Below, one piece after another: positions 647 through 4,365 of a DNA stretch of 64,000 bases; the stretch's first letter is position 1, and every line of letters starts with the position of its first letter. Made by a program: the position numbers and the translations under genes. Source of the stretch: Undibacterium sp. Jales W-56 (GTDB taxonomy: Bacteria; Pseudomonadota; Gammaproteobacteria; Burkholderiales; Burkholderiaceae_D). The notes under the pieces were generated by a model, which was given only the letters and a program-made list of their open reading frames with translations, made no database searches and was not told where the DNA came from. The stretch is taken from contig NZ_JAJLQW010000001.1 of NCBI RefSeq assembly GCF_025548535.1, forward strand, positions 1,054,001-1,118,000, in the 5' to 3' direction.

Positions 647-675
647 TTTACGTTTTCGCCTTGGTTTGCTATAGT
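647..675 (+). promoter_or_regulatory. Promoter of tRNA-Val
   Basis: A -35 like TTTACG (647-652) and a -10 TATAGT (670-675) are separated by 17 nt. A GC-rich stretch (CTCGGC) follows, as is common at stable-RNA promoters under stringent control. The predicted start is about 5 nt before the mature tRNA. Confidence 0.55.
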
Positions 676-686
676 CTCGGCTCTTC

Positions 687-763
687 GGGCGGTTAGTTCA
701 GCTGGTTAGAATACTTGGTCGACATCCAAGGGGTCGCAGATTCGAATTCTGCACCGCCCACCA
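687..763 (+). tRNA. tRNA-Val (GAC)
   Basis: A complete cloverleaf can be drawn. The acceptor stem GGGCGGT pairs with ACCGCCC, the anticodon stem CTTGG with CCAAG, and the seven-base loop TCGACAT gives anticodon GAC, which reads valine GUC/GUU. The T-arm has GTTCGAATTC-like pairing around TTCGAAT, and the 3' CCA is encoded (761-763). It lies directly upstream of the thrS leader. Confidence 0.95.
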
Positions 764-820
764 GAATTTTTATCATGCAACGTGCAGCGTTGCTACATAG
801 ATAAGAGCGAGAAAGGCATC

Positions 821-871
821 ATGGTTATGACACCGCGAACTACGAGCACAGCAATTTGTGAGCGACGTTAG
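821..871 (+). CDS. thrS leader peptide, threonine-rich
   Basis: A 16-codon frame reads MVMTPRTTSTAICERR and stops at TAG 869-871. Four of its 16 residues are threonine (codons ACA 830, ACT 839, ACG 842, ACA 848). A purine-rich site (GAAAGG, 811-816) precedes the ATG at 821; the ATG at 827 is an alternative start. It ends 36 nt before an intrinsic terminator that lies just ahead of thrS. Position, length and codon content match the leader peptides of ribosome-mediated attenuators. I infer that it senses charged tRNA-Thr. In E. coli thrS is instead controlled at translation by an operator that mimics tRNA, so this would be a different solution. Confidence 0.75.
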   Translation: MVMTPRTTSTAICERR

Positions 872-917
872 TCGAGGGTCTTTTTCGTTTGTAATTTTTG
901 AAAAAAACGCGGCTAGC
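839..917 (+). promoter_or_regulatory. thrS attenuator: competing RNA helices
   Basis: Three mutually exclusive helices can be drawn by eye. (1) A pause-type helix pairs ACTACG (839-844, the double-Thr codons) with CGTTAGT (866-872) with one bulge. (2) An antiterminator pairs GTTAGTCG (867-874) with CGGCTAGC (910-917), eight contiguous pairs including two G-U. (3) The terminator pairs 907-912 with 918-923. A ribosome stalled at the Thr codons would cover 839-850 and free 867-874 to form the antiterminator. A ribosome reaching the stop codon (869-871) would cover that segment and let the terminator form. This is the logic of the E. coli pheST and his attenuators. Confidence 0.65.
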
Positions 918-930
918 CCGCGTTTTTTTT
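907..930 (+). terminator. Intrinsic terminator in the thrS leader
   Basis: Stem ACGCGG (907-912) pairs with CCGCGT (918-923) around the loop CTAGC, followed by eight T (923-930). It sits 73 nt before the thrS start codon and downstream of the Thr-rich peptide, so it is probably an attenuator as well as the end of the tRNA-Val transcript. Confidence 0.85.
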
Positions 931-1003: not shown

Positions 1004-2914
1004 ATGGTTTCAGTTCGACTTCCCGATGGTTCTCAGCGTCAATTCGACGCCCCTGTCACTGTAGCGCAGGTGGCTGCCAGTATCGGTGCCGGTCTGGCGA
1101 AAGCGGCATTGGCAGGCAAGGTGGACGGCAAATTGGTGGATACCTCGTTTTTGATTTCCACTGACGTCGATCTGTCTATCGTGACAGATAAAGACCCGGA
1201 TGGCCTGGAAGTCATTCGCCATTCGACTGCGCATTTGCTGGCCTATGCGGTGAAAGAACTGTTCCCGGATGCCCAGGTGACGATCGGTCCGGTGATCGAC
1301 AACGGCTTTTACTATGACTTTTCTTATAAGCGTCCATTCACGCCCGATGATCTGGTTGCGATAGAAAAGAAAATGCAGGAATTGGCAAAGAAAGATGAGC
1401 CAGTCATTCGCAAGGTATTGCCGCGCGATGAGGCGGTGGCTTACTTTAAGTCGATCGGCGAAGCCTATAAAGCGGAAATCATTGCATCGATTCCAGCGGA
1501 TCAGGATGTGTCGCTTTACACCGAAGGCAATTTCACCGATCTGTGCCGCGGCCCGCATGTGCCTTCGACTGGCAAATTGAAAATATTCAAGCTGATGAAG
1601 CTGGCCGGCGCTTACTGGCGCGGTGATTCGAAAAACGAGATGCTGCAACGCGTGTACGGCACCGCATTCGCGAAAAAGGAAGATCAGGAAGCCTATCTGC
1701 ACATGCTGGAAGAAGCGGAAAAGCGCGATCATCGCAAACTGGGCAAGGCATTGGATTTGTTCCATTTCCAGGACGAGGCGCCGGGCCTGGTATTTTGGCA
1801 TGCGAAGGGCTGGACCATATGGCAGCAGGTCGAGCAATACATGCGCAAGGTGTACCAGGATTGCGGTTATCAGGAAGTCAAGGGGCCGCAGATTCTCGAC
1901 AGCAGCCTTTGGGGTAAGACCGGGCACTGGGATAACTATAAAGACAATATGTTTATCACCGAATCGGAAAACCGTTCATATGCGTTAAAGCCTATGAATT
2001 GTCCGGGTCATGTGCAGATTTTCAATTCTGGCATGAAGAGTTACCGCGATCTGCCGCTGCGTTTCGGCGAATTTGGTCAATGCCACCGCAATGAGCCTTC
2101 CGGTGCTTTGCACGGCATTATGCGGGTACGCGGCTTTACCCAGGACGATGGCCATATTTTCTGTACTGAAGAGCAAATTCAGTCCGAGGTGATGGGTTTC
2201 CATCCGCAGGCGATGAAAGTGTATGCGGATTTCGGCTTTACCAATATTGCGATCAAGCTGGCTTTGCGTCCGGAAAACCGTATCGGCAGCGATGAAGTCT
2301 GGGACAGGGCTGAGGAAACTCTGCGTGCGGGCTTGCGTGCCTGCGGCGTCAGCGAATGGGAAGAATTGCCCGGCGAAGGTGCGTTCTACGGTCCGAAGGT
2401 CGAGTACCATCTCAAGGATAGCCTCGGTCGTCCTTGGCAGGTCGGGACTATGCAGGTCGACTTCTTCATGCCGGGTCGCCTTGATGCGGAATATGTCGCC
2501 GACGACAATAGTCGCAAAGTGCCGGTGATGCTGCACCGTGCGATTGTCGGTTCGCTGGAGCGTTTTATCGGAATGTTGATAGAAAATCATGCCGGTGCGA
2601 TGCCGGTATGGTTGGCGCCAGTGCAGGTTTCTGTTTTGAATATCTCCGAATCACAGGCTGAATATGCGAAATCCGTTGCAGAAAACCTGAAGAAACAAGG
2701 GTTTAGAGTGCACACCGATTTGCGTAATGAGAAAATAACCTATAAAATACGCGAGCATTCAATGCAGAAGCTACCTTATATCATCGTCATCGGTGATAAG
2801 GAGCGGGATGCAAACACCGTGGCTGTGCGTACGCGTGGCAATCTGGACCTGGGTGTAATGACCCAAGATGCTTTCTTAGAACGTCTGAAAAACGACATCG
2901 CTACGAAGGCTTAA
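1004..2914 (+). CDS. thrS: Threonyl-tRNA synthetase
   Basis: It charges tRNA-Thr with threonine in the cytoplasm. At 636 residues it has the normal bacterial length and domain order: TGS domain (about 1-65), editing domain, class II catalytic core and C-terminal anticodon-binding domain. The zinc ligands that bind threonine are visible as C333 (NCPGH), H384 (DDGHIF) and H511 (MLHRAIVG), nearly the same positions as in E. coli. The start is the ATG at 1004, with GGAG 7 nt upstream; the frame stays open further upstream but has no site there. It heads the thrS-infC-rpmI-rplT group and is preceded by a Thr-rich leader peptide and attenuator hairpin. Confidence 0.97.
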
Positions 2915-2971
2915 CCAGATAGACCAGCGACAAAGCACAGCCAATTTATTTAATTTTTGAAGGAAACTGCA

Positions 2972-3493
2972 ATAGCTACTGACAAGTCACATCGCATCAA
3001 CGGTGAAATTACAGCGCCAGAAGTGCGCTTATCCGGCGTTGAAAACGAGCCATTAGGCATCGTTAAACTAGTTGAAGCCTTTCGTTTAGCGGAAGAGGCC
3101 AATGTTGATTTAGTGGAGATTGCGCCAACTGCGCAACCACCAGTTTGCCGTCTGATGGACTACGGCAAATTCAAGTACCAAGAGCAAAAGAAGGCGCACG
3201 AAGCCAAACTGAAGCAAAAGGTCATTCTGGTCAAGGAAGTCAAATTCCGTCCTGGTACCGATGATGGCGATTACAACATTAAGTTGCGTAATCTGACCAA
3301 GTTCCTGGACGATGGCGACAAGACTAAAATCACTTTGCGCTTCCGCGGTCGTGAAATGGCGCATCAGGAAATCGGCATGCGCATGCTGGAGCGCTTGAAG
3401 CTGGACTTGGAACCTTACGGCCAGGTTGAGCAGTTTCCCAAGATGGAAGGTCGTCAGATGATCATGATTCTGGCACCGAAGAAAAAGAAATAA
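2972..3493 (+). CDS. infC: Translation initiation factor IF-3 (ATA start)
   Basis: IF-3 binds the 30S subunit, prevents premature 50S joining and checks the start codon. The product (173 residues) begins (M)[12 protein letters not shown] and keeps the family signatures [36 protein letters not shown] and [13 protein letters not shown]. The initiation codon appears to be ATA at 2972-2974: it has AAGGA at 2960-2964, 7 nt upstream, and gives the N-terminus expected in related bacteria. The only standard alternative, TTG at 2957, overlaps that site and has only A/T-rich sequence before it. A non-AUG start fits the known autoregulation of infC, where IF-3 rejects its own rare start codon (AUU in E. 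coli). Confidence 0.92.
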
Positions 3494-4289: not shown

Positions 4290-4326
4290 CGGGGCAGAGG
4301 TTGAATCCTGTGCCCCGTTTTATTTT
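4290..4326 (+). terminator. Terminator between rplT and pheS
   Basis: CGGGGCA (4290-4296) pairs with TGCCCCG (4311-4317); AGG/CCT adds three inner pairs, and TTTTATTTT follows. It lies 40 nt before pheS. I looked for a Phe-rich leader peptide here, as in E. coli pheM, and found none. Confidence 0.75.
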
Positions 4327-4365
4327 CAGTAGTCAAATTTCAGCTTCCCCTTCGGGAATAATCGC

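Follow-up and report, generated by a model that had tools for sequence, protein, structure and literature searches.

The window analysed here, a stretch of 64,000 nucleotides from Undibacterium sp. Jales W-56 (contig NZ_JAJLQW010000001.1), contains an open reading frame with threonine codons and a terminator between a tRNA-Val gene and thrS, at the positions given in the original prediction, which was made from the sequence of this DNA. The distance from the terminator to thrS is 77 nt, and the best named relatives of the encoded threonyl-tRNA synthetase (ThrRS) belong to Undibacterium species (89-92% identity). The features of the locus are as follows:

647..675, + strand: promoter-like match of the sigma-70 type (TTTACG-17-TATAGT), for tRNA-Val and probably also for leader and thrS
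687..763, + strand: tRNA-Val(GAC), identified with ARAGORN
802..817, + strand: ribosome-binding region TAAGAGCGAGAAAGGC, near-invariant in the home-family alignment A1
813-816, + strand: Shine-Dalgarno core AAGG, inside the ribosome-binding region
823..840, + strand: 18-nt block GGTTATGACACCGCGAAC, conserved at the nucleotide level including synonymous sites
827..871, + strand: leader ORF MTPRTTSTAICERR with stop codon TAG (869-871), its start and Thr codons conserved among relatives
830, 839, 842, 848, + strand: Thr codons of the leader ORF
836..844, + strand: region 1 CGAACUACG, overlapping Thr codons, partner of region 2 in the fold of 836-874 (-7.8 kcal/mol)
867..874, + strand: region 2a GUUAGUCG, partner of region 1 or region 3a according to the pairing in A1
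878..890, + strand: region 2b GUCUUUUUCGUUU, partner of 805-817 (ribosome-binding region) or 899-905 (antiterminator) in the MFE fold
899..917, + strand: region 3, the 3' side of a two-part antiterminator (899-905 and 910-917) in the fold
904..930, + strand: intrinsic terminator AAAACGCGG-CUAGC-CCGCGUUUU with a T run at 923-930
1004..2914, + strand: ORF of thrS, threonyl-tRNA synthetase (636 aa), the putative controlled gene

Two observations concern the genes behind thrS. The infC gene (IF3; window 2960-3493) has no ATG or GTG at the expected start and seems to begin at ATA (about 2972, GGAAACTGCAATAGCTACTGAC); IF3 genes commonly have rare start codons. Between rplT and pheS, at 4290-4330 of the window, there is a second terminator-like hairpin (GGGGCAGAG...CTGTGCCCCGTTTTATTTT), near which no Phe-rich leader was obvious by eye.

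The leader had been described as a 16-codon peptide with four Thr codons. The Thr codons are present, but the leader is likely shorter: the codon at position 821 is CTG, TTG or CGG in nearly all relatives, so that ATG 821 is unconserved, and GGTT-ATG at 823-829 is invariant among them. The start was therefore placed at ATG 827, which most likely gives a leader of 14 codons. As in other amino-acid leader-peptide attenuators, a short, putatively translatable ORF is thus found with a ribosome-binding site upstream; its start is invariant in 90 leaders, and the Shine-Dalgarno region and the ATG are conserved in A1. At the local Thr frequency of 5.2%, at least four Thr in 13 codons are expected by chance with P = 0.0035. 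Thr accounts for 31% of the residues in 112 distinct leaders, as opposed to 5.2% in the long ORFs of the window; when the leaders are read in the two remaining frames, its share is 2% and 12%. Codon 6 encodes Thr in 77 of these leaders (ACG 22, ACA 21, ACC 24, ACT 10) and codon 7 in 78, and since the third base is free, selection acts on threonine itself. Thr runs are also kept in otherwise unlike peptides, such as MFFPLARTTTRNFRPMSR (Achromobacter), MFKRTTTTRTSR (Vogesella), MTTTRTTRRHQ (Paenalcaligenes) and MTPRTLTETTSERR (Burkholderia). Aligning the thrS upstream regions, the check suggested for conserved Thr codons, hence showed an ORF that is enriched in these codons and conserved at the amino-acid level, with the exceptions described below.

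The comparative set comprised 170 thrS upstream regions of Burkholderiales (Oxalobacteraceae, Burkholderiaceae, Comamonadaceae, Alcaligenaceae and others). A Thr-bearing leader was found in about 140 of them, 134 by an automatic rule (a CG[AG]-AC[TG] core and at least two Thr) and six on inspection (L056, L063, L078, L111, L142, L153). Because the rule required this core, it biases any count of the Arg-Thr pair; the leaders from inspection and from distant loci are not all of this form. A covariance model built from A1 matched in 49 of 300 genomes of the order and gave only one marginal match outside it. One region of the set (L080, CALPOM020000171.1) is binned as Thermoflexus hugenholtzii, but its thrS is 74% identical to that of Undibacterium, which is probably a binning error.

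A homologous leader that keeps the terminator and lacks Thr codons had been named as the case that would speak against attenuation, and it occurs once. In this locus (L023, genome G027) the leader reads MRIFLYMVSMLLPKRC, and a region 2-like sequence and the terminator are kept, which may reflect decay or a change of specificity. The leader stop codon is lost in L024, and in L032 (G042) the leader and regions 1-2 are deleted, with the ribosome-binding site joined directly to the terminator hairpin. In the distant families of L186, L187, L191 and L192, the leaders contain few Thr or none beyond the two in MTPRT. Polynucleobacter, Limnohabitans-like and some Nitrosomonadales-like genomes have retained a terminator but no leader, and leaderless relatives mostly have no region 2 either. 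A leaderless terminator-like hairpin lies 16-65 nt before thrS in Limnohabitans-like (L071, L073, L084, L106) and Polynucleobacter-like (L048-L052, L062) loci.

Three competing helices had been proposed by eye, and all three were found, two of them with a larger extent than described. The pause helix, given as 839-844 with 866-872, reaches 836-844:867-874. The antiterminator, given as eight pairs including two G-U between 867-874 and 910-917, is longer and continues inward with 881-887:899-905. In the terminator, 908-912:918-922 was confirmed, and A-U pairs extend the arms to 904-912:918-926. The predicted energies are -7.8 kcal/mol for the pause helix and -12.7 kcal/mol for both the antiterminator and the terminator, which are thus equal. 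Folded by itself, 821-935 barely outperforms shuffled sequences (z -1.7), so that the case rests on comparison and not on folding energy. In A1, the pairing of region 1 has 94.3% of cells paired and that of region 2a with 910-917 has 95.9%, as opposed to 12-48% when slid; all eight outer antiterminator pairs are present in 45 of 64 sequences and seven in 17. Mutual exclusion of the pause helix or antiterminator with the terminator was seen both in the window and in nearly all relatives from the home family, and an intrinsic terminator between the ORF and thrS is near-universal among the relatives.

Covariation, proposed as a further check, was not above column-shuffled controls for either helix in the home-family alignment, where it is uninformative because the helices are nearly invariant. 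In other lineages, however, the pairing is re-made with new sequences: the terminator sequence has changed there, and region 2 pairs anew with the changed version. Examples of the region 2:3 pairing are UCGAGG:CCUCGA (Burkholderia), GUCGAGG:CCUCGAC (Pandoraea), CGAGG:CCUUG (Cupriavidus) and GUUCGCGC:GCGCGGAC (Acidovorax). The leader stop lies earlier (TGA or TAA, 5-6 nt upstream) in Janthinobacterium, Rugamonas, Pseudoduganella and others, and the region 2 sequence GACGCTAGTCG persists there downstream of the ORF and in a different frame. When the middle region was shuffled, pairing of one and the same segment with both region 1 and region 3 exceeded the shuffles in Acidovorax (p 0.007-0.02) and Rubrivivax/Roseateles (p 0.02-0.05) and was not significant in the home family or Burkholderia; combined over clade medians, p was 0.02. 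A duplex-energy swap test between clades for the region 2:3 pairing was discarded, as it is confounded by differences in GC content and length of the terminator arms.

When 764-1003 is folded, a helix forms between the Shine-Dalgarno region (805-817) and 878-890. Compared with shuffled spacers, this helix gave p = 0.005 in the window and a mean z of -1.4 in the home family and was weaker elsewhere; it stands out in the window and in some clades, and in most clades the median is not significant. In Burkholderia and Cupriavidus the Shine-Dalgarno context differs and the spacer matches it, e.g., AAGGCGAA with UUCGCCUU. By itself, the spacer folded no better than shuffles (mean z -0.3), because its U-rich and A-rich stretches pair anyway. 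According to this predicted fold, the helix may be a way of shutting the ribosome site of the leader when it is untranslated.

The promoter-like match at 647..675 is the only one in 600-1200, where 0.6 would be expected by chance. A tRNA-Val gene lies upstream in 79 of the 134 leader-bearing relatives found by the rule, at 24-130 nt (median 52) from the tRNA end to the leader ATG. The shortest of these gaps (24-37 nt) leave no space for a separate promoter, and tRNA-Val, leader and thrS are therefore probably one transcript; judged from this arrangement, they would be co-transcribed from the tRNA-Val promoter. Where the tRNA is absent, promoter-like sequence was seen by eye directly upstream of the leader, e.g., in L046 and L019.

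Taken together, the anatomy of the locus, the Thr residues conserved as amino acids and the mutually exclusive pairings that divergent lineages have retained support the peptide-based attenuation of thrS that had been predicted, and we consider a leader-peptide transcription attenuator that controls thrS by the supply of charged tRNA-Thr to be the most probable reading (probability roughly 0.85). Transcription would begin at the tRNA-Val promoter and pass through the leader. With plentiful Thr-tRNA, the ribosome would get to the stop codon at 869-871 and mask region 2, so that the terminator at 904-930 could form and the transcript would end after tRNA-Val and the leader. With scarce Thr-tRNA, the ribosome would stall at the Thr codons (830-850) and mask region 1; region 2 would then pair with region 3, no terminator would form, and RNA polymerase would continue into thrS and possibly also into infC-rpmI-rplT behind it. 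If the leader is untranslated, the pairing of region 1 with region 2 and of region 2b with the Shine-Dalgarno region would keep the system off.

Besides the constraint at the amino-acid level on the Thr run, a second one is visible at the nucleotide level on the start block. In 90 leaders almost every base of the 18-nt block is fixed, synonymous positions included, and this comprises leader codons 2-4 (ACA CCG CGA) and the preceding GGTT. With one mismatch allowed, 115 of 145 family genomes contain it a single time, as opposed to a handful of matches for the reversed-pattern control; in the order it is present in 46 of 399 genomes, which span at least eight families. All eleven distant loci examined are situated upstream of thrS. 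The peptide and the region 1 helix do not account for all of this conservation in at least eight families. A second RNA-level input besides stalling at Thr codons, acting via the block and the ribosome-site region, is conceivable, if rather unlikely: the block might be bound by a protein or RNA or have a special initiation property, and the transcript of tRNA-Val, leader and thrS might couple tRNA supply, leader translation and synthetase level.

The same conservation would also suit a protein, ThrRS or another, that binds the 5' block for autoregulation as known from E. coli ThrRS, with the peptide being secondary, since it exceeds what the peptide and the helices need. However, a protein-binding site would not need Thr codons 6-7 to be kept as amino acids, the Thr run persists where the block is lost (Achromobacter, Vogesella and Pandoraea, as do the Thr codons in Paenalcaligenes), and there is no Rfam match at the locus, which makes such autoregulation very improbable. 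The chances are slightly better, though still poor, that the terminator merely ends the tRNA-Val transcript and that thrS is expressed by constant partial read-through past an incidental short ORF. Some relatives indeed have tRNA-Val and a terminator without a leader (Polynucleobacter L048, L049, L051 and L062, and also L128), but 55 of the 134 leader-bearing relatives have no upstream tRNA, and an incidental ORF leaves the amino-acid-level conservation of Thr, the strong ribosome site and region 2 unaccounted for.

Least likely of all is that the leader senses arginine or general translation speed instead of threonine. Arg, too, is enriched, at 20% of the residues in the leaders, and there is hardly any variation in the CGA codon that precedes the Thr run. 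However, the C-terminal Arg codons are a consequence of region 2 (GCGACGCUAG) and are missing from leaders with a moved stop codon, L063 and L193 keep Thr codons without a CGA-Thr pair, and the putatively regulated gene is thrS.

Such an attenuator adds a mode of control for the universal and essential thrS across a large order with soil, plant-associated and clinical genera, in which one lineage uses a peptide attenuator while the control of thrS takes other forms in other bacteria. The losses, the moved stop codon and the re-made pairings make the evolution of an attenuator readable, and the arrangement points to a single transcript for a tRNA gene and a synthetase gene. While this type of switch is known, a leader-peptide attenuator on thrS in Burkholderiales is provisionally regarded as new: in the open-access literature no paper was found that links thrS to a leader peptide in Betaproteobacteria. 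A study by Lopatovskaya et al. from 2010 reportedly deals with the attenuation of aminoacyl-tRNA synthesis operons and may already mention a thrS leader.

In E. coli, the pheST attenuator with its pheM leader is a Phe-sensing leader-peptide attenuator before pheS. It likewise controls a synthetase gene in the same operon type (thrS-infC-rpmI-rplT-pheS-pheT), whereas the locus described here is putatively Thr-sensing and lies before thrS. The E. coli thrS operator acts on translation through ThrRS binding and the T-box of Gram-positive thrS genes binds tRNA directly; both share with the reading proposed for this locus the control of thrS by charging or synthetase level and differ in that no peptide is involved. 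A T-box riboswitch covariance model had no match at the locus. Peptide-based attenuation was originally presented as a third design for thrS, which is too strong, because a Thr leader before thrS was proposed earlier for Streptomyces lividans (thrL, 18 residues with two Thr, transcribed leaderless; PMC8079986). Both are proposed Thr-containing leaders before thrS, but that of S. lividans belongs to the Actinobacteria, is unrelated in sequence, and its termination is unclear (PMC8079986). Rfam searches at gathering and relaxed thresholds gave nothing relevant at the locus, and Thr_leader (RF00506) had no match at the gathering score or at E up to 10. With the amino-acid leader-peptide attenuators of Proteobacteria (trp, his, leu, ilv and the thr leader RF00506), the locus nevertheless has in common a short ORF with many codons for the regulating amino acid, a pause helix, an antiterminator helix and an intrinsic terminator before the gene; it differs from them in that it would control an aminoacyl-tRNA synthetase gene, has a two-part antiterminator and is probably transcribed behind a tRNA gene.
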